Positions 1-32,998 of a stretch of DNA of 64,000 nucleotides are shown here, one piece after another (position 1 is the stretch's first letter; each line of letters begins with the position of its first letter). The stretch comes from an uncultured Desulfovibrio sp. Its GTDB lineage: Bacteria; Desulfobacterota; Desulfovibrionia; Desulfovibrionales; Desulfovibrionaceae. The stretch lies in contig CAJXYU010000001.1 in NCBI GenBank assembly GCA_913063155.1, positions 62,001 through 126,000 of the forward strand, written 5' to 3'. The notes beneath the pieces are model-generated. The model ran no database searches and was not told the origin of the DNA. It saw nothing but the letters and a program-made list of their open reading frames with translations. The position numbers and the translations under genes were made by a program.

Positions 1-1119
1 CTGGAGGAATTGGGCACGCTGGCCGGGGGAATCGCCCACGACTTCAACAACATCCTGGCTGCAATACAGGGCTACGCCGAGCTTTCCCTGCCCACGGTGG
101 AACCCGAAAGCCGCGCCCACACCAACCTGCAGCGAATCCAAAAGGTGGCCGCACGGGCCAAGGAAATGGTGCACCAGATCCTGGTCTTCTCCCGCAGGCG
201 CGAACCTCAGAAAAGCCTCATCGCCCTGCCTCCCCTGCTCAAGGAGGTGGTCAATTTCCTGCACACCTCCCTGCCCTCCACCATCGAGATCCGCCTGGAA
301 CCGGGTACGGAGGACGCCGTCGTCCTGGGCGATCCCGGCCAGATGCACCAGGTCATCACCAACCTGGGCACCAACGCGGCCTACGCCATGCAGACAGACG
401 GCGGCGTACTGACCATTTCCCTGGAACGGGTGGAGTTGGGCGAAAAGGACCTGCCGCCCACGAACACGCTGACGCCGGGAACCTACTTCAGGCTGCGCGT
501 GGCCGACACCGGCGAGGGCATCCCCGAGGAGGTCATGGGACGCATCTTCGACCCGTTCTTCACCACCAAACCCCAGGGCAAGGGCACGGGAATGGGGTTG
601 TCCATGGTCCACGGCATCGTGGGCACCATGCACGGCGAAATCACCGTGGCCAGTGATCCGGGCCGGGGCACGACCTTCGACATCTTCCTGCCGAAGGCGC
701 AGGGCGCCCCGCATGAGACGGTGAAACGCAGGGACGAGGTGGTCCCGGGCCGGGGCCGCATCCTGTTCGTGGACGACGAGGCGGACATGGTCAACGTGGG
801 CGAGCAGATGCTGGGCGACCTGGGCTACACGGTCACGGGCGTCAACGACAGCCTGGACGCGGTGGACGTGTTCCGGCGCGCGCCCGCGGACTTCGACCTG
901 ATCATCACGGACCAGACCATGCCCTACCTGACCGGCGACCGCCTGGCCAAGACCGTGCACGCCATCCGGCCGGACATTCCCATCATACTGTGCACCGGTT
1001 ATTCCGTTTCCCTGGAAAACATCCGGGAAGGGGAGCACGGCATCCGGGCCATCCTCATGAAACCCTTTACCGCAGCCGAGCTTTCCAAGGCCGTGGACCG
1101 GGCATTGCGGGACCCCTGA
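1..1119 (+). CDS. Hybrid sensor histidine kinase with C-terminal receiver, 5'-truncated
   Basis: The reading frame is already open at base 1, so only the C-terminal part is present. In order it has a HisKA dimerisation helix with the H-box GGIAHDFNN (phospho-acceptor His), a HATPase_c domain with N-box NLGTNAAYAM, G1 DTGEGIPEE, F-box FDPFFTTK and G2 GTGMGLSM, then a linker and a receiver domain with acidic pair DDE, phospho-acceptor Asp in ITDQTMP and the conserved Lys in LMKPF. This is the usual hybrid kinase plan with a terminal REC that may act as a phosphate sink. The sensory domain lies outside the window, so the stimulus is unknown. It converges on cutC. Confidence 0.93.
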   Translation: MEELGTLAGGIAHDFNNILAAIQGYAELSLPTVEPESRAHTNLQRIQKVAARAKEMVHQILVFSRRREPQKSLIALPPLLKEVVNFLHTSLPSTIEIRLEPGTEDAVVLGDPGQMHQVITNLGTNAAYAMQTDGGVLTISLERVELGEKDLPPTNTLTPGTYFRLRVADTGEGIPEEVMGRIFDPFFTTKPQGKGTGMGLSMVHGIVGTMHGEITVASDPGRGTTFDIFLPKAQGAPHETVKRRDEVVPGRGRILFVDDEADMVNVGEQMLGDLGYTVTGVNDSLDAVDVFRRAPADFDLIITDQTMPYLTGDRLAKTVHAIRPDIPIILCTGYSVSLENIREGEHGIRAILMKPFTAAELSKAVDRALRDP

Positions 1120-9197: not shown

Positions 9198-10709
9198 TTA
9201 TGGGCACAGCGCCGAGATCAGGGAACGGCAAAGCCTGTCGTTGCAGGTGGGCGCCTCGCGAACGCGTTGGCGAAGTTGGGTGATGGTGGCCTGCGGGAAA
9301 AACCCGGGCTCCCTGACGGACCCGTACCAGAGGTCGCAGGAATCGGCCCGGGTGCGGCAGGTGGGGATGTAGCCTTCCTCGATGACCGACGCCTCATGCT
9401 CAAGCAGGCCGGCGGGTGTCTGCGGACCAAGAGCACAGAGCCGGGCTTCGATGAAATGCCTGCGATCCTCCATGCTTTCCAGGTTGTCCGGGTGAAGCGA
9501 CGCGGTCAGAATCCCGTGATAGACCTGCGTGGGCCGATGGATATAGCGGATGGGCATCTCAACCACGGTGTCGACAAGGTCCCGGTTGGCGCTGAACGCC
9601 CGACCGAGATCCTGCAACGTGCGGGAAAAGGCGTCGACAACCTCCTGCTCGAAACCCTGCACGGAGACGCGGCGCCCCGCCAGTTGAGGAAGGCAGTACG
9701 GGCCGTTGCAGGGGACCTCGCCCGCCTTCATGTGCAGGGTGTCCCTGCCCCAGTCGCACCAGACAAACCCGTGCACTCGTTTTGCAGGGTCCGGCGCACA
9801 GCCCAGCGCCGAATAATCGTACTCCCGCCCGTGAACCGGAACCATGCCCGACCGCTCCAGCAAATGCGTGCCGTCACGTACGGGCTGCATCACTGTTTCC
9901 AGATCCACAAAAATCGGAAAATCGGCGCAGGCGATCATGTTCTCGGCATGGAAATCCACACCGCCCAGCAGATACAGGAGCGCGAGATTGGCTCCCTGCC
10001 TCCGGAAAAAGAGCTTCACGGCCTCCTCGTCGCGACACGGGTCCTCGGCGATGCACTCCTGCCAGCCGTACGCCCCCATGTCCATGGTGGCCGGGGCCAG
10101 ATAGGCTTCCCAGCCGAGTTCGGCGTTGAGCAAAGACACCAGCCTGGAAAAAAGTACGTCAGGGGCCATGGATCTCGGTTTATAGACCAGCCGCTCGCCT
10201 CCCCGGAATTCCAGGATACAGACTCCGGCCCCGCTCTCGTGCAGGTCCGCGCAGTCCGCCGCAATGTCCTTGAGCTCGTCCAGATCACAGGAAACGCCCA
10301 GGCACTTGGCAATGTCCTCCCCGTCCGTCTTGAGCCGCCGCAGCATGGCGTCGAACTCAAAGGTCCAGTCCGAAACCAGAGTCCATGGCAGCTCGCTCAG
10401 GCCCTCGTACTTGTCCAGCAGAAGATCCTGGAGCCGCTGCCGGGCCAACAGTTCGTCGAATTGGCGATAACGGCCTTCCGGGGTGGCGGCCTTGAAACGG
10501 CCTATTGCACGGGCCTCGGCCTGCTCCGCGGCCAGGGCCAGGTTCAGGACACGGGAAAGACGCCCGGCAATGATCCGGGCCAACATGTTCTGGCAGCCGT
10601 TTTCCCAGAGCAGGGGCCATTGAGCGCACAGCCCCATGACGCACCCCGTGGCCAGGGAGTCGATCGTTTGGGGGAAAAGGAAGTCGTCCTTGTCTATCAG
10701 CATGGGCAT
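9198..10709 (-). CDS. Stand-alone LanM-type dehydratase domain (DUF4135), no LanC cyclase
   Basis: 503 residues matching the N-terminal lanthionine-synthetase dehydratase fold, a lipid-kinase-like enzyme that phosphorylates Ser/Thr and eliminates phosphate. Visible active-site motifs are D155-L-H157 then LEFRGGERLVYKPRS (ATP-contact Lys at 177), the catalytic loop D252-F-H254-A-E-N257 and the metal motif D269-L-E271-T. The segment IRYIHRPTQVY then TASLHPDNL (388-410) corresponds to the elimination Arg/Thr region. The protein stops where a full LanM would continue into its LanC domain, and none is encoded nearby. A repeat-peptide gene lies just upstream behind a hairpin. ATG at 10709 was chosen; an in-frame TTG lies at 10715. 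It is cysteine-rich. Confidence 0.82.
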   Translation of the reverse strand: MPMLIDKDDFLFPQTIDSLATGCVMGLCAQWPLLWENGCQNMLARIIAGRLSRVLNLALAAEQAEARAIGRFKAATPEGRYRQFDELLARQRLQDLLLDKYEGLSELPWTLVSDWTFEFDAMLRRLKTDGEDIAKCLGVSCDLDELKDIAADCADLHESGAGVCILEFRGGERLVYKPRSMAPDVLFSRLVSLLNAELGWEAYLAPATMDMGAYGWQECIAEDPCRDEEAVKLFFRRQGANLALLYLLGGVDFHAENMIACADFPIFVDLETVMQPVRDGTHLLERSGMVPVHGREYDYSALGCAPDPAKRVHGFVWCDWGRDTLHMKAGEVPCNGPYCLPQLAGRRVSVQGFEQEVVDAFSRTLQDLGRAFSANRDLVDTVVEMPIRYIHRPTQVYHGILTASLHPDNLESMEDRRHFIEARLCALGPQTPAGLLEHEASVIEEGYIPTCRTRADSCDLWYGSVREPGFFPQATITQLRQRVREAPTCNDRLCRSLISALCP

Positions 10710-10713
10710 GAAC

Positions 10714-10733
10714 AAAAGGCGCTGCCGCCCTTT
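10714..10733 (-). terminator. Attenuator-like hairpin between peptide and dehydratase genes
   Basis: On the minus strand an 8-bp stem (one G-U pair) with loop GCAG is followed by the T-rich bases of its own arm, in the 41-base gap between the peptide stop and the enzyme start. A partial terminator here would make peptide mRNA more abundant than enzyme mRNA. Confidence 0.5.
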
Positions 10734-10750
10734 GTGCGTATGGCGTCCGT

Positions 10751-10915
10751 TCAGGAGCTTCCGGGAATACGGGTATCAGGAACGAAAGTGTCGGGGACGC
10801 GGGTATCCGGAATCCGGGTGTCCGGTATGCGGGTATCGGGGACAAAGGTGTCCGGCACAGTGACGATGCAGGCCAGAAGTTCTTCAACACCGGGAATCAC
10901 GTTGCGCTTTGCCAT
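10751..10915 (-). CDS. 54-residue tandem-pentapeptide precursor-like peptide
   Basis: Too short for usual gene calling, but well supported. GAGGAGG lies seven bases before the ATG, a strong promoter lies upstream, and the product is highly patterned. Residues 1-19 (MAKRNVIPGVEELLACIVT) could be a leader with one Cys. From residue 20 come seven five-residue units: six fit [VI]PDT[FR] (endings F, R, R, R, F, R) and the last is IPGSS, then stop. Each full unit has one Thr, the residue type a LanM dehydratase modifies. The synonymous codons vary between units, which argues for selection on the protein. The dehydratase gene follows 41 bases later. RiPP precursor status is inference; a structural or scaffold peptide is the alternative. 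Confidence 0.75.
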   Translation of the reverse strand: MAKRNVIPGVEELLACIVTVPDTFVPDTRIPDTRIPDTRVPDTFVPDTRIPGSS

Positions 10916-10953
10916 ACAGGCCTCCTCATGAAATTATTACGATCATGTACATA

Positions 10954-10981
10954 ATTATTGAATTCGCAATATAGATGTCAA
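10954..10981 (-). promoter_or_regulatory. Strong sigma70-type promoter of the repeat-peptide operon
   Basis: On the minus strand a consensus TTGACA (10976-10981) is 16 bases from AATAAT (10954-10959), in an AT-rich stretch about 39 bases upstream of the peptide ATG. Confidence 0.7.
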
Positions 10982-11078
10982 TCTTTAATCATATTTACAC
11001 AACGGCAGGCGCAAATGCCCGGAAAATACGACCCCGCCCCTTGCCAAAATCCGAAACAGGATTAGCTTGTGCATTGAC

Positions 11079-13712: not shown

Positions 13713-14438
13713 ATGACCACGATTCGATTAATGTTTGTGTTCGCAGCCATGTTCCCGGCGCTGCTCGTCCTCATTCCTCAGCAGGCCATGGCCGCCGAAA
13801 CCGACAGGAAGGTCACCCTTTCCTACAAGTTCACGTCCGAAGGCTACGAGTTCGGCGCCATGCAGGTGACCCGCTCCCCAGCCGAGCGCGGGGGAAAAAA
13901 GGTCATCAGACAGTTCAAGGACTCGACCATGACCCTTGAAGCCAACCAACAGGTGAAGGTTTCCGAATCGGCCGTATTCTCCCGCGACGGACAAATCTGG
14001 GAATATGCCGGCCACCTGAAGGGAAAGGACACGTATGACATCCGTCTGCAGCGCGACAAGGACACCCTCGCCCTCGAGCTTCGGGAAAACGGCAAGGCCA
14101 TCCACAACGAGAAGGTGCCGGCAGCCGATGTGGACTACACAAGCCAGTATCTGCCCATGGACAGCCTCGATCCGGCGTCCCGGCCCTCGTATCGCCTGCT
14201 CAATCTGGACGAACTGAATGTGGTCGGTACAGTCTTGCACAAGGTCGGACGCGAACGTCTCACGGTATCGGGCGACACATTCGACTGCACTGTCATTTCC
14301 CTGGATGCGGGTCCGGCCAAGGCCAGAAAATGGATGGCCAGGGACGCCAACGGCTACTGGTTCGCGGTCAAGGAGGAAATACACTCCAGTGACGGAGACT
14401 TTGAAATGGTTCTGACGAAATACCGAGTCTCCCGATAA
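13713..14438 (+). CDS. Secreted protein of unknown function, paralog 1 of 3
   Basis: 241 residues. The signal peptide is 1-26 (cleavage near AMA-AE). The mature protein is beta-strand-rich with motifs shared by all three copies: a G-x-E-F/P-x-G-x-M-x-V-T-R motif near the start, DTYxIR, VDYTSQYLPMD, DCTVIS and KWMARDANGYWFAVKEE near the C-terminus. It is distantly like DUF3108-type periplasmic proteins in length and strand pattern, but I cannot name a family. GAGGAG before the ATG fixes the start. It is closest to the copy at 15721. No terminator was identified. Confidence 0.8.
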   Translation: MTTIRLMFVFAAMFPALLVLIPQQAMAAETDRKVTLSYKFTSEGYEFGAMQVTRSPAERGGKKVIRQFKDSTMTLEANQQVKVSESAVFSRDGQIWEYAGHLKGKDTYDIRLQRDKDTLALELRENGKAIHNEKVPAADVDYTSQYLPMDSLDPASRPSYRLLNLDELNVVGTVLHKVGRERLTVSGDTFDCTVISLDAGPAKARKWMARDANGYWFAVKEEIHSSDGDFEMVLTKYRVSR

Positions 14439-14478: not shown

Positions 14479-15561
14479 TTACGGCCCCTGGGGCAGCAAT
14501 TCCCTGCCCTCGGCCCGAAGCCTCCGTATCCGGGCCGCGACCCTGCGAATGGCTTCGTAGCGCTCCCCCGCATCCCAGGGACCGTCGCCCTCAAGGCGTA
14601 AATCGGCCTGTTCGCTGGCCAGCCTGCCCCAGAGGATATGCGCACGGCTCACATCATATCCGGCCCGGGCAGCCATGAACAAACCAAGGACATCGGCCTC
14701 GATTTCCTGGGCCAAGGGAAACGGGTCGTCATACTCTTCCATCTCGCCCCCCACGCTGAATCCCAAAAGCATACCCAGCGCCCCGTTCATCGCCTCCATG
14801 CCCGCATTGCGCCTCTCACGCATTTCCCCATGCCTGAGCACCACGTGGGCCATCTCCTGCCCAAGGAGTACGGCCAGTTCCCAGTCGGCCCGGCATAAAC
14901 GCATAAGCCCTCCACAGACGTACACAAAATCATCCTCACTGAACTTCGAACCCGAAAGGATGTTGAGCGGCGCCGCCTGCACGGAGCACATGCGTTCCGG
15001 GGATACCTTCAGCTCAAGAAGTTCGCCGCCTCTCCTGATTTCAAGGACGACGGATTTCCCCTTTTCCGCAGCCATGCCCAAAGCGCTCATGACATTGGAT
15101 GTTTCAGAACTGTCCGGGAAAAACGATCTGCCATTGACGGCGACAATCTCATCACCGGCCCGCACTCCCGCACGCTCGGCCTGTGTTCCGGTCCCTACGA
15201 AGCGAACCCGCGCCGCACTTCCCCCGTCCAGGCTGCGAAGAACAGGACCGTAGTGAGGGTGCTGATACTGCGCATCCTCAGTAACGATCCCAAGGGAAAA
15301 ATGCGTCTTCTGGCCGCACAATCCGGCATTGTGCAAGAGCAGAGGGTACAGTACTGTATTCAGGCGGTCCTGCCGCGAACGGTACAGCAGCGCTGCATCC
15401 CGTACATGGGCTCCGGGTTTCACGTCGTTGACGACCCTGCGCCCATGGGTGCAGGCAGGCAACAGGAAAACCGAAACGCCCAAGACGAAAACAAGGCGCA
15501 AAACACTGAGCTTGTCATGATGACCCCCCCGCCCTTTCAGCCGCGTGACAGAGATGCCCAT
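14479..15561 (-). CDS. PDZ-M48-like lipoprotein with degenerate zinc site (QEMAH)
   Basis: 360 residues. The N-terminal signal ends in lipobox LLPAC (C37), so this is a lipoprotein. A PDZ domain spans about 120-190 (GVRAGDEIVAVNG). The C-terminal domain resembles M48 metallopeptidases: LLGQEMAHVVLRHGE (235-246) and EIEADVLGLFMAARAGYD. The family zinc motif is HExxH; here the first His is Gln (codon CAG), leaving Q235-E-M-A-H239 with the third ligand Glu in EAD kept. It may be an inactive pseudoprotease or chaperone-like factor, or may coordinate metal differently. It lies between secreted paralogs 1 and 2 on the opposite strand. Confidence 0.78.
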   Translation of the reverse strand: MGISVTRLKGRGGHHDKLSVLRLVFVLGVSVFLLPACTHGRRVVNDVKPGAHVRDAALLYRSRQDRLNTVLYPLLLHNAGLCGQKTHFSLGIVTEDAQYQHPHYGPVLRSLDGGSAARVRFVGTGTQAERAGVRAGDEIVAVNGRSFFPDSSETSNVMSALGMAAEKGKSVVLEIRRGGELLELKVSPERMCSVQAAPLNILSGSKFSEDDFVYVCGGLMRLCRADWELAVLLGQEMAHVVLRHGEMRERRNAGMEAMNGALGMLLGFSVGGEMEEYDDPFPLAQEIEADVLGLFMAARAGYDVSRAHILWGRLASEQADLRLEGDGPWDAGERYEAIRRVAARIRRLRAEGRELLPQGP

Positions 15562-15720: not shown

Positions 15721-16446
15721 ATGACCTGCCTGCGATCACTGATCCTGTTCGCAACCATGCTCCCGACCCTGCTCATGATCACGCCCCTGCCGGTCCAGGC
15801 TTCCGATGCCGCCAAAACGGTCACGATCTCCTACGAGCTCACGGCCAAAGGACGCGAGTTCGGCGCCATGCAGGTGACCCGGACTCCCGGCATGCACGGG
15901 GAAGAGGAAATACTGAGGCAACTCAAGGCCACGGCCATGACCCTGGAAAACGGACAACGGCTGCAGGTTTCCGAATCCGCCCTTTTCTCCCGCGACGGTC
16001 AGCTCTGGGAATACTCCGCCCGGCTGAAAGGAGCGGACACCTATGAAATCAGGCTGCTGCGCGACAAGGAAACTCTCGACATCAAGCTCATGGTCAACGG
16101 CAACGCCACCTCCTGCGAAAACGTGCAGACCGGCGACGTCGACTACACCAGCCAATATCTGCCCATGGACAAACTCGGACCAGAGCAGTCGGCCTCGTAC
16201 CGTCTGCTCAGCCTGGACGAATTGAGCGTTGTCGGCGCGGAAGTACGCAAGGGCGGGCGCGAACGACTCGAAATTTCCGACAGGACGTTCGACTGCACGG
16301 TCGTTTCCCAGAGCACGGGCTCGACCAAAACCAAAAAATGGATGGCAAAAGACGCCAACGGCTACTGGTTCGCCGTCAAGGAGGAAATCCGATCCGACAA
16401 AGGCGGCTATACCGTGACGCTGACCGGCTATCGGATCTCGCAGTAG
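15721..16446 (+). CDS. Secreted protein of unknown function, paralog 2 of 3
   Basis: 241 residues with a signal peptide to about residue 26 (VQA-SD). It is clearly homologous along its length to the product at 13713: GREFGAMQVTR, SESALFSRDGQLWEYS, VDYTSQYLPMDKL, DCTVVS and KWMAKDANGYWFAVKEE are near-identical blocks. AAGGAG precedes the ATG. Two Cys (in the SCENVQ and DCTVV blocks) could pair after export. It is probably a periplasmic beta-rich binding or chaperone-like protein, but no function can be assigned. It shares a promoter dyad with paralog 1, implying the same regulator. Confidence 0.8.
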   Translation: MTCLRSLILFATMLPTLLMITPLPVQASDAAKTVTISYELTAKGREFGAMQVTRTPGMHGEEEILRQLKATAMTLENGQRLQVSESALFSRDGQLWEYSARLKGADTYEIRLLRDKETLDIKLMVNGNATSCENVQTGDVDYTSQYLPMDKLGPEQSASYRLLSLDELSVVGAEVRKGGRERLEISDRTFDCTVVSQSTGSTKTKKWMAKDANGYWFAVKEEIRSDKGGYTVTLTGYRISQ

Positions 16447-16525: not shown

Positions 16526-17275
16526 ATGAAATACTGTACTCTCCTCCAAAAAACGACTCGAAAGCCCCTCCTCGCGAGCCTTGCGTTCCTCTTCTGCCTG
16601 TTGGCGTTCCGCCCCCTTTCCGCCGCTGCCGCCGCGACAACGGCCAGGAAGCTCTCCCTCGACTATGAAATCAGCATGAAAGGGGAGCCTATCGGCCGAA
16701 TGAAAGTGACCAGAACGCCCGTGGTGACGGACAATCGAGACGCGATCAAGGAGCTCAAAAAAACGCTCATGCACACGGGAAGCCGCTCCAGGCTGGAAAG
16801 CATGGAACAGGCAGAGTTCCGCAGGGGCGGGACCCTCCTGTCATACGACGCCGACATCAAGGAAAAGGACACCTACCGCATAAAGGCCCGTCTCAAGGAC
16901 GGCAGCGTTTCCATCAAATTCTTTGAAAACGGGGTGGAAGCCTACGCCACCAGCATCAAGACCGAGGACATTGATTTCACCTCCCTGTACCTGCCTCTGG
17001 ACGCTCTGAAGCCGGGCGCGAAGTCCTACTCCGTGCTCGACCTGGGGAACCTGGAAACGGAGAGCACCTCGGTGCGTAGGCTGGGAAAGGGAAACATCTC
17101 TGTCAAAGGCCGGAAGCTGGCCTGCACCATCGTCCTTCTCAAGGCAGGCGCCATGGAAACGCGACGTTGGCTGATCAGGGACGAAAACGGCTATTGGCTG
17201 CCGGTACGGGAAATCGTTCATACCGAAAGCGGCGACTTCACCACCGAACTGAAGGAGTATCGCATCCTGGACTAG
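16526..17275 (+). CDS. Secreted protein of unknown function, paralog 3 of 3
   Basis: 249 residues, the most divergent copy. The signal peptide runs to about residue 33 (AAAA-ATT). Shared blocks are LDYEISMKGEPIGRMKVTRTP, EKDTYRIK, EDIDFTSLYLPLD, KLACTIVLL and RRWLIRDENGYWLPVRE. In paralogs 1 and 2 the corresponding block reads DANGYWFAVKEE. The stop codon shares the palindromic CTAG with the convergent gene's stop (17272-17275). No strong Shine-Dalgarno is seen. Function unknown. Confidence 0.78.
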   Translation: MKYCTLLQKTTRKPLLASLAFLFCLLAFRPLSAAAAATTARKLSLDYEISMKGEPIGRMKVTRTPVVTDNRDAIKELKKTLMHTGSRSRLESMEQAEFRRGGTLLSYDADIKEKDTYRIKARLKDGSVSIKFFENGVEAYATSIKTEDIDFTSLYLPLDALKPGAKSYSVLDLGNLETESTSVRRLGKGNISVKGRKLACTIVLLKAGAMETRRWLIRDENGYWLPVREIVHTESGDFTTELKEYRILD

Positions 17276-30110: not shown

Positions 30111-31871
30111 TCAGGCCTCCTCGTCCGTTATGGGCAGCATGACGGTAAAACGGGTCCACTGGCCCATCTCGGAGTGCACTTCCATGCGCCCCTTATGCTG
30201 ATCGGCGACAATGAAATAGGACACGGACAACCCGAGGCCGATCCCCTTATCCACCTCCTTGGTGGTGAAAAAAGGTTCGAACACGCGCTTGCGGGTGTAC
30301 TCGTCAAGGCCCGGACCGTTGTCTTCCACTTCCACCACAGCCAAACCGCCACGCCGCTTCAAGCTCAGGCGCAGGCGCGGCCCTTCGTCGCCGTAGTCCT
30401 TGTTCGCCATGGCTTCGGCCCCGTTCTTGAACAGGTTCAAAAAGACCTGCTGGATCTCGTTGCCCTCGCAGTGCACCTTGGGCATATCCGGCTCATAATC
30501 GCGGACGATCTCGATCTTTCGGAAATCATACTGCTTCTTGAGGCTGTAGTCGTTGGCGGCCAGCTCCAGCGTCTTGTCGAGCAACTCGGCCAAATCATAT
30601 TTGCCCATGTGTTTTTCGCTCTTGCGACTGAAACGAAGCATGTTGCTGACGATGTTCGAGGCCCGCTCGCCGGATTCGAGAATGCCCTCAAGCATCATGG
30701 GAATCTCCCGCCGCTTCAGATATTCGCGGACGCCCTCCAGGGAAACGCCACACGCCTCGGCCACCTTGACGTTCCTGGTCAGACTGCCGAAAATCCGTTT
30801 CTTGACGTTGTGCCCATACCCCATGATGGCGGCCAGCGGGTTGTTGATTTCGTGGGCCATGCCCGCGGCCAGGCCGCCGACGGACATCATCTTCTCTGAC
30901 TGGACCATCATCTGTTCGAGATTCACCCGGCTGGTCACGTCATCGATACGAACCACGGCCCCTTCCACTCCGTTGATGACCAGGGGGTAGATGGTGATGT
31001 CCTCATAGCGCGTGCTTCCGCCGATGCGGGAACGTCGTTTGGGGTCCACCATTTCCCGCCGGCTCTCGACGGCCTCCCTGACGCGGTCCATGTCTTCGGC
31101 CAGCCGGGGCATCACCTCGGAAAGGGAACGTCCCACAGCCTCCGCACTCGAAAGACCGCTCTCCTTTTCCGCCATGATGTTCCACTGGGTGACGAGACCT
31201 TCCGTGTCGACGCCGATAAGGATGGACGGCATGGAATCGATGATGTTGCTCAGATAGTTACGCAGGTGGCGGAGTTCGTCCTCGATCTGCTCGCGCTGAA
31301 CAATCTCCTGCTGATACTTGTAATTCTGGGTCGCCATGTCGGAAAGAAAGGCGGAAAGGGCCACGTTGTGCTTGAGGATTTCCTCCACCTTTTCCCGGCT
31401 GAACCGGGGCACCTTGCGCAGGGCTTCCAGATAGGCCTGCTGATCAAAGCCGTACTTTTCGGCCTGCCGGATGAAAAACTTTTCGTCCACGAATTCGTCT
31501 TCGTAGTAGAACTGACCCAGAAAGCTGGTGGCGACATGATGTCCGGCGCAATATATGGGAACGCCGATGTCCCAGAGACCGTTGGCGCACCTGTACCCGT
31601 GGGGCTTGCCGTCCTTGATCTTGTTGACGATGGCGGTGTCGTTCTCGATGCAAAGGGCATTGGTCGTGGGGTGCGCACGGTGGAACTTCACGCATATGTC
31701 CTGCCAGCCCGCCCCGGCGTAGACCTCGCCGGTGACCGCGTCGATGATCCCCGAAGGCATGCCCGTGGCGGCATAGTTCACCTCGAGCATGTTCTGCAAC
31801 TGGTCGACATTGACCAACCCCCGAAACGAGAAACGGGGAAGAGGGGCTTCCTTGTTATTCTCAGACGACAC
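30111..31871 (-). CDS. PocR- and PAS-domain sensor histidine kinase
   Basis: 586 residues. Residues about 10-175 match the PocR ligand domain (LLxxYxxxTG with Cys-rich CVKFHRAHPTTNALC and CANGLWDIGVPI); it likely binds small-molecule ligands. A PAS domain follows, then HisKA with GGLAAGMAHEINNPL, and HATPase_c with N-box FKNGAEAM, DNGPGLDE, FEPFFTTKEVDKGIGLGLS. No membrane helix, so it is cytosolic. The only in-frame starts near the domain are GTG at 31871 (AGGAAAGG six bases upstream) and TTG at 31898; GTG is preferred. It is cotranscribed with the receiver protein. Confidence 0.87.
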   Translation of the reverse strand: MSSENNKEAPLPRFSFRGLVNVDQLQNMLEVNYAATGMPSGIIDAVTGEVYAGAGWQDICVKFHRAHPTTNALCIENDTAIVNKIKDGKPHGYRCANGLWDIGVPIYCAGHHVATSFLGQFYYEDEFVDEKFFIRQAEKYGFDQQAYLEALRKVPRFSREKVEEILKHNVALSAFLSDMATQNYKYQQEIVQREQIEDELRHLRNYLSNIIDSMPSILIGVDTEGLVTQWNIMAEKESGLSSAEAVGRSLSEVMPRLAEDMDRVREAVESRREMVDPKRRSRIGGSTRYEDITIYPLVINGVEGAVVRIDDVTSRVNLEQMMVQSEKMMSVGGLAAGMAHEINNPLAAIMGYGHNVKKRIFGSLTRNVKVAEACGVSLEGVREYLKRREIPMMLEGILESGERASNIVSNMLRFSRKSEKHMGKYDLAELLDKTLELAANDYSLKKQYDFRKIEIVRDYEPDMPKVHCEGNEIQQVFLNLFKNGAEAMANKDYGDEGPRLRLSLKRRGGLAVVEVEDNGPGLDEYTRKRVFEPFFTTKEVDKGIGLGLSVSYFIVADQHKGRMEVHSEMGQWTRFTVMLPITDEEA

Positions 31872-32026
31872 CCGTGCACCTTTCCTGCCATGGTCCAAAA
31901 AGGAATTCTCAATTATGAAACAATGCCACGAAGCCTTGGTACAAACAATGATAAATCAATAGGCATTAAAAGCATCGATGAAAAGAATAGATGCTTGGCA
32001 ACCATCCCCGAGGAGGAGCGTTCACC

Positions 32027-32053
32027 AAAAAGGCGGCCCTTCCGAGCCGCCTT
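32027..32053 (-). terminator. Terminator of LysR gene 1
   Basis: An 8-bp stem AAGGCGGC/GCCGCCTT with an 8-base loop, followed on the minus strand by TTTGG. 37 bases past the stop. Confidence 0.75.
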
Positions 32054-32089
32054 CATATCAAAGCTGGTAAGCACCCGCGAACCCACAGG

Positions 32090-32998
32090 CTACAACCCGC
32101 AACGATCTCCGCTTGTGGCGAAACGACGCATGACCTCCAGGAACAACGCCAATGCCACGGAGTCGTCACCTCGCCGCCAGACAAGCAGCAACTCGCTCAT
32201 GGGCGGGTGCTGCGGCCACCGAAACTGCATGAGCTTCACGCTGCGTGGGCAGGCCTGCTCCATGCGCGCAGGCACGAAGCTCACGCCCATGCCCGCCGCA
32301 ACCAGGGCCAGGCGGGTCTGGTGCTGATCCACCTCCTGAACGATGCGCGGCGAAAGCCCCCGCTCCTCGAACATGTTCATGATCGCCCCGTAGGTGGCCG
32401 GATAATACTCGCGCGGCGGCATGATCAGGGTTTCGTTGTGCAGCGTCTTGAACCCCACACGAACGCACCGGGCCAACCGATGATCCTGACGCATGGCCAG
32501 CACGTACGGGTCCATGAGATAGGCCATGCTCTCCAAGGCCTTGTCGTCCACCCCGCCCTGAATGAGAGCGGCGTCGAGCTCCTCGGCCTTGAGCTTTTCC
32601 ATGGCCTCGGGGGTGTGGGTGTCCTGGATGTCAAGGGCGATGCTGGGATGGTCCCTCCGGAACGCGGCGACCGCGTCCGGGAAGTTGGACTGGGCCGCGG
32701 AGTTGATGAACCCCACACGCACCCTGCCGACCTCGCCCCTGGCCATCATGCGCAGTTGCTCCGCCCCGGTGTTCAGGGTGTCCAGGGTGTTGCGCGCCAC
32801 GGCCAGAAACCGGCTCCCTTCACGGGTGAGCTTCACGCTCCGCTTGGTGCGGTTGAAAAGCATGACTCCCAGATCCTCTTCCAGCTTCTTGATCTGCTGG
32901 CTGAGCGGAGGCTGGGCCATATGCAGCCGTTCGGCGGCCCTGCCGAAATGTTTTTCTTCGGCTACGGCGATGAAATAACGAAGTTGTCTGAGTTCCAT
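32090..32998 (-). CDS. LysR-family regulator 1 of 5
   Basis: 302 residues. The N-terminal winged helix reads MELRQLRYFIAVAEEKHFGRAAERL followed by AQPPLSQQIKKLEEDLG, then a LysR substrate-binding domain (about 90-290). The ligand is unknown. It is divergent from the small membrane-protein gene at 33113. The shared intergenic region holds the 36-bp element at 33006. It is closest to LysR 2, 3 and 5 in the window, suggesting local duplication. A terminator follows. Confidence 0.93.
   Translation of the reverse strand: MELRQLRYFIAVAEEKHFGRAAERLHMAQPPLSQQIKKLEEDLGVMLFNRTKRSVKLTREGSRFLAVARNTLDTLNTGAEQLRMMARGEVGRVRVGFINSAAQSNFPDAVAAFRRDHPSIALDIQDTHTPEAMEKLKAEELDAALIQGGVDDKALESMAYLMDPYVLAMRQDHRLARCVRVGFKTLHNETLIMPPREYYPATYGAIMNMFEERGLSPRIVQEVDQHQTRLALVAAGMGVSFVPARMEQACPRSVKLMQFRWPQHPPMSELLLVWRRGDDSVALALFLEVMRRFATSGDRCGL

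Follow-up and report, generated by a model that had tools for sequence, protein, structure and literature searches.

The stretch of DNA that we analyzed, hereafter the window, comprises 64,000 nucleotides from an uncultured Desulfovibrio sp. (assembly GCA_913063155.1, contig CAJXYU010000001.1, positions 62,001 to 126,000), and it carries on its minus strand a gene for a repeat peptide and, 35 bases further on, the ORF of a stand-alone LanM-type dehydratase (Table 1). The 54-amino-acid peptide, read from 10915 to 10751, is MAKRNVIPGVEELLACIVT-VPDTF-VPDTR-IPDTR-IPDTR-VPDTF-VPDTR-IPGSS. The enzyme is 505 amino acids long if translated from the TTG at 10715, the start to which the 35-base gap is counted, or 503 from the ATG at 10709; residue numbers below follow the 505-residue form, and those of an earlier sequence-only reading, which used 503 residues, are lower by two. 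That reading had described a leader-like stretch followed by six [VI]PDT[FR] units without Cys and a final IPGSS, a promoter and ribosome site in front of the peptide gene, and a 503-residue DUF4135 protein with the LanM catalytic residues, and all of these elements are present.

Table 1. Features of the peptide and enzyme locus, in window coordinates.
Feature	Coordinates	Strand	Evidence
Stand-alone LanM-type dehydratase (DUF4135)	9198..10715	(-)	PF13575, phmmer, nine catalytic residues
Intergenic hairpin, possible attenuator, weakly supported	10712..10735	(-)	Fold, 10-bp stem
Putative precursor peptide gene, 54 aa	10751..10915	(-)	ORF; relative in G023 at E 1.5e-16
Terminal unit IPGSS and stop	10751..10768	(-)	VPGRL in G023
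Six tandem pentapeptide units VPDTF VPDTR IPDTR IPDTR VPDTF VPDTR	10769..10858	(-)	
Leader-like region, residues 1-19, MAKRNVIPGVEELLACIVT	10859..10915	(-)	Translations; leader role inferred
Ribosome-binding site GAGGAGG ahead of ATG	10921..10927	(-)	Read from sequence; identical in G023
Sigma-70-like promoter TTGACA-16-AATAAT of the peptide gene	10954..10981	(-)	Consensus scan, 11/12 matches

The promoter of the peptide gene is one of three promoter-like sites between 9000 and 11200, compared with a mean of 0.3 in shuffled sequences. In G023, the one other genome of the genus with the two genes, the TTGACA hexamer is identical, with an 18-base identical block (GATTGACATCTATATTGC), whereas the second hexamer is AATAAG rather than the AATAAT of the window and is a poorer match. 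The region from 10930 to 10985 is AT-rich, with a GC content of 41% over 10916-11066 vs 59.4% for the window, and with the 18-base block kept in G023, a regulator site may lie there in addition to the promoter. The hairpin that had been noted after the peptide gene does exist, but it carries little weight, as it is not unusual for its composition (z -1.36, with 22 of 200 shuffles as good) and a terminator scan found none at this position. The intergenic hairpin of G023 scored a z of -3.16, with 1 of 200 shuffles as good.

By sequence comparison, the enzyme is homologous to the dehydratase domain of LanM synthetases. DUF4135 (PF13575) was its only Pfam match (E 8.7e-71, 239.5 bits against a cut-off of 29), aligning residues 107-452 to positions 5-374 of the 378 in the profile, and the NCBIfam LanM model matched over 32-502 of its 932 positions with 274.2 bits, under its cut-off of 304. 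In phmmer searches, both LicM2 (6st5, E 9.6e-39) and CylM (5dzt, E 1.6e-15) matched in their dehydratase halves. The available text of PMC4550811 assigns D252, H254, R506 and T512 of CylM to phosphate elimination and K274, D347, H349, N352 and D364 to the kinase step. In our alignment, the elimination residues correspond to D157, H159, R390 and T396 of the enzyme and the kinase residues to K179, D254, H256, N259 and D271. The stretch of CylM in which R506 and T512 sit is weak when taken alone (3.6 bits); the single alignment with LicM2 extends to residue 421 and has the same RPT motif. All nine residues are invariant in the G023 enzyme, and the complete set (DHKDHNDRT) occurs in 37 of the 45 rows of a MAFFT alignment, the window and G023 included. 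These rows comprise the window enzyme, its relative and the frames of the survey described below, taken as the longest frame with YKP per locus; some are clipped at locus ends, and two pairs are duplicate genes (L213/L219 and L210/L211). Residue 452 aligns to CylM 566, and by extrapolation, the C-terminus of the enzyme should fall near CylM 619, close to Pro624, which the same text gives as the end of the kinase-like part of CylM (PMC4550811). A single-sequence AlphaFold model was set aside, as its pLDDT was 34.6.

The peptide matched no family of Pfam or NCBIfam at E <= 1. A Nif11-type leader was absent from the same searches and a Gly-Gly site was not found by reading, nor was a nitrile-hydratase-like leader found, the 19-residue leader region having no family match in Pfam or NCBIfam. 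Of 200,000 shuffled versions of the peptide, none had three or more copies of PDT at a period of five, and Tandem Repeats Finder detected the array at periods of 7, 15 and 30, with its longest row spanning 10770-10855 (period 30, 73% matches). The G023 peptide, MEMRKVIPSVEELMTAIAN, has seven PDT units and then VPGRL, and it shares with the window peptide the motif VIPxVEEL within the leader-like region. The statement that the repeats hold no Cys is true of the window peptide, which has one Cys in its leader; the G023 peptide also has a single Cys, but it lies inside a unit (CPDTF), at a position not shared with the window.

Both the enzyme and the peptide were found in 2 of the 36 genomes of the genus, the window's own (G000) and G023, and at E <= 1e-3, neither was found in the other 34, the set including a few incomplete genomes. 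The next-best match of the peptide had an E of 0.0016 and lies in a 921-amino-acid frame of G031. In G023, the peptide gene stands directly before the enzyme gene, the enzyme is 66-67% identical to that of the window, and the pair sits, as in the window, between the macrodomain and aldehyde dehydrogenase genes. The pairing of a stand-alone LanM dehydratase domain with a repeat peptide, proposed from the window only, thus gains support from a second species in which both are conserved, and the co-occurrence in related genomes on which that proposal was to stand or fall was found, although in one relative. Across the order, the enzyme was present in 2 of 247 genomes, and among 395 genomes of the phylum, any DUF4135 was found in just one, again the window's own. 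The macrodomain gene itself occurs in 35 of the 36 genus genomes. All 30 loci returned around it have hslV beside it, and two of the 30, those of the window and G023, have the enzyme and peptide. In G014 (L151), the aldehyde dehydrogenase and macrodomain genes are neighbors about 190 bases apart, a spacing that looks like an empty site, and at the remaining 27 loci, no aldehyde dehydrogenase was seen in the 1.5 kb examined. G000 and G023 are 81% identical in the macrodomain protein and 95.5% in HslV, whereas the values for the other 28 loci do not exceed 73% and 90%; they are the closest kin among these loci, suggesting that the pair was probably gained once. Since just two close species have the pair, their co-occurrence is worth about one evolutionary event.

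Between the window and G023, dN/dS (NG86) was 0.30 (0.247/0.835) in the enzyme gene and 0.31 (0.225/0.729) in the peptide gene, compared with 0.33 in the neighboring macrodomain gene. When the PDT codons of the 13 units of both species were compared in all pairs, none of 468 base comparisons differed at positions 1 and 2, whereas 110 of 234 differed at third positions, indicating that the DNA has drifted but the PDT amino acids have been retained. The Thr after Asp is invariant in all 13 units, although the number of units differs (6 vs 7). Worked by hand, the third codon positions of an antisense frame with a V-S-G repeat coincide with those of the sense frame, and so the codon test alone cannot choose the strand; the sense strand is instead fixed by the start codon and its ribosome site, together with the TTGACA block and the order of the genes, all of which are kept in both species.

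We searched more widely for stand-alone enzymes and repeat peptides. The enzyme query found no relative in genome contigs and the two-enzyme alignment no match in viral contigs; as both searches rest on short exact peptide patterns, neither result proves absence. Genome contigs scanned for three PDTxx codon units gave at least 117 stretches, and tblastn of 117 of them revealed no enzyme relative, the best match outside the window and G023 loci having an E of 0.42. One such stretch, on a Xanthomonas floridensis contig (L016, near 458-495, plus strand), lies in a 101-amino-acid frame in which five LPDTF units follow one another, and no enzyme relative was found within the DNA examined around it. 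Among phages, one record matched, an unannotated Enterococcus phage (OR846606.1) with a LanM-like stretch at 31500-32534 (23.6% identity, E 1e-13). Plasmids gave 184 records, all below 60% identity, of which 8 cover at least 80% of the query.

In 1,133 genomes of three other phyla, none of them Firmicute, the two-enzyme alignment matched at 52 places (28 of 339 genomes at E <= 1e-10, and 8 of 398 and 4 of 396 at E <= 1e-8). The open frames there were 844-1178 amino acids long at 50 places and under 700 at two. One of the short frames, in G1230 (496 amino acids), is missing the last three of the nine catalytic sites and has a recombinase-like gene nearby, as judged by eye. At this locus (L218, 6073-7942, plus strand), a Cys-containing 109-amino-acid peptide ORF stands beside the incomplete LanM frame, and the whole looks like a disrupted lanthipeptide locus. 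The other, in G1560, is an intact, stand-alone frame of 525 amino acids, or 516 from its ATG, with the nine catalytic residues complete. This DUF4135-like protein of another phylum (L219, 5519-7069, plus strand) adjoins ORFs that by eye resemble a regulator and an acetyltransferase, and neither a repeat peptide nor an evident precursor was found beside it. Among 117 short ORFs near survey genes that were tested for tandem peptide repeats alongside a ribosome-site-like motif, repeats were found at the window and G023 loci only, one of the matches being an antisense reading of the window's own array. In a midpoint-rooted FastTree phylogeny of 42 dehydratase domains, with long branches and thin sampling, the window and G023 enzymes group with that of G1560 (0.91) and these with L203 (0.91), a 1058-amino-acid frame with LanC-like motifs by eye, which weakly hints that the window enzyme may descend from a cyclase-bearing LanM.

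No LanC domain (PF05147) was found in the whole genomes of G000 or G023 at E <= 1e-3, extending genome-wide the earlier observation that none is adjacent; a control search with PF05147 matched in 1 of 14 named genomes, confirming that the search works. As no cyclase was found, and the repeats hold no Cys in the window and only one, not shared, in G023, a lanthionine product is unlikely. The neighboring genes encode an aldehyde dehydrogenase, a macrodomain protein and a proteasome-family protein, named hslV here. Among the ten neighboring window proteins scanned, there was no ABC peptide transporter and no YcaO, the enzyme itself being single-domain, and nothing beside the pair was recognized as a dedicated transporter, protease or immunity gene. 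Two of the ten scanned proteins are peptidases, HslV and a PDZ-M48 protein about 3.6 kb off. The PDZ and M48 peptidase matches lie at 14479-15561 (-), past the peptide gene, and are unlinked to the pair. Three plus-strand proteins (13713-14438, 15721-16446 and 16526-17275) look alike, with paralogy and signal-like starts seen by eye; two of them have no Pfam match, and the third matches DUF6134 below the threshold. PADLOC reported nothing at E <= 0.1, and no Rfam family reached its gathering score in the window.

We favor, with modest confidence, the interpretation of the locus as a two-gene RiPP system in which a cyclase-less LanM enzyme dehydrates a repeat precursor into a ring-less Asp-dehydrobutyrine array. 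The 54-amino-acid precursor would be transcribed from its own promoter, and the DUF4135 enzyme would bind the short VIPxVEEL leader region and use ATP to phosphorylate the Thr in each [V/I/T/C]-P-D-T-[F/R/K] unit. The phosphate would then be eliminated, as the conserved residues suggest, leaving Asp-dehydrobutyrine units without thioether rings, and general proteases might, more speculatively, cut the array after the F, R or K that ends each unit. We infer from the genes that the peptide is the substrate of the enzyme and its first 19 residues the leader, as we do the leader binding, processing and product. The sequence-only reading had left the product as dehydrobutyrine or phosphothreonine rather than a lanthipeptide. 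Because all nine phosphorylation and elimination residues are kept, the four for elimination among them, arrayed Asp-dehydrobutyrine appears the likelier product, with phosphothreonine as its main rival. To our knowledge, Asp before Thr is not a favored context for lanthipeptide dehydratases, and this counts against the proposal.

The enzyme could instead stop at phosphothreonine and produce linear, multiply phosphorylated Pro-Asp-pThr repeats. The precedent is EmbM of Ca. Eudoremicrobium malaspinii, a cyclase-less LanM relative that is reported to phosphorylate two Thr of the Cys-free precursor EmbA, yielding phospeptin (PMC9505594; PMC9259500), a pairing of precursor and enzyme similar to ours in its Cys-free core and Thr target, a likeness qualified by the Cys that lies inside one G023 unit. 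However, EmbM is described in the available text as lacking the elimination residues and halting at the phosphate (PMC9505594), whereas D157, H159, R390 and T396 are kept here in both species, and we regard a phospeptin-like kinase as unlikely, if worth keeping in mind. A lanthipeptide-like outcome, with thiols from the peptide's own Cys or an enzyme encoded elsewhere attacking the dehydrated units, could draw on the CPDTF unit of the G023 peptide and the leader Cys of the window peptide, but these positions are unshared, and neither G000 nor G023 has a LanC-like gene at E <= 1e-3, which makes this outcome very improbable.

About as improbable is that the enzyme acts on another substrate and the repeat peptide has a separate role, as a regulatory leader peptide, in metal binding or as a structural element. 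The peptide has no match among known leader families, but the genes are adjacent on the same strand and co-inherited in two species, and Thr is fixed in each PDT unit, as a substrate of a LanM enzyme would be expected to show. The pair might also be a decaying, non-functional remnant in which a LanM has lost its cyclase and the peptide is left over, given how rare it is (2 of 247 genomes of the order) and the existence in G1230 of a truncated LanM from which some catalytic sites are missing. With intact frames in two species whose enzymes are 66-67% identical, a dN/dS of 0.30 and nine catalytic residues kept, we give this the smallest chance of all.

Compared with described systems, the earlier claim that no family of this form is known was too strong, as PoyF and EmbM are published cyclase-less LanM dehydratases (PMC9505594; PMC9259500). 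PoyF, described in the accessible part of PMC9505594 as a LanM dehydratase without a cyclase in polytheonamide biosynthesis, resembles the window enzyme as a lone LanM dehydratase domain that dehydrates a Thr, but its target is a single N-terminal Thr in a proteusin precursor with a nitrile-hydratase-like leader, and its cluster encodes many enzymes. EmbA has, according to the sources available, a Nif11-type leader and a Gly-Gly site, both absent from the window peptide; a tandem pentapeptide array is not described for phospeptin in the sources compared, and its cluster has further genes. CylM and LicM2 are similar in that their dehydratase domain is homologous to the window enzyme, where all nine catalytic residues known from CylM are present, but the window enzyme has no LanC and falls under the LanM cut-off, and its precursor has no conserved Cys. 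CcaM and LanMbC, of the dehydrazoles, are likewise reported to involve a DUF4135 dehydratase that forms dehydro residues but no lanthionine (PMC10676384). In the open-licence PubMed Central literature, covered mostly at abstract level, we found no account of a DUF4135 enzyme paired with a tandem-pentapeptide precursor. The type of enzyme is thus known, but its combination with a tandem-pentapeptide precursor looks new, as do the kept elimination residues and the small size of the locus. More tentatively, with the chances slightly against it, the locus may represent a minimal ring-less RiPP class in which one elimination-competent enzyme converts every Pro-Asp-Thr of one precursor into Pro-Asp-dehydrobutyrine, giving a poly-dehydro peptide or releasable dehydro-pentapeptides.

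If the proposal is true, the locus would be a two-gene system in which a cyclase-less LanM dehydratase acts on many near-identical consecutive sites, and it would offer a clean model of what the dehydratase half of LanM needs in leader and core, as well as a compact way to obtain peptides with multiple dehydrobutyrines. The locus would further show that repeat-type precursors occur with LanM enzymes, with the number of units varying between species.
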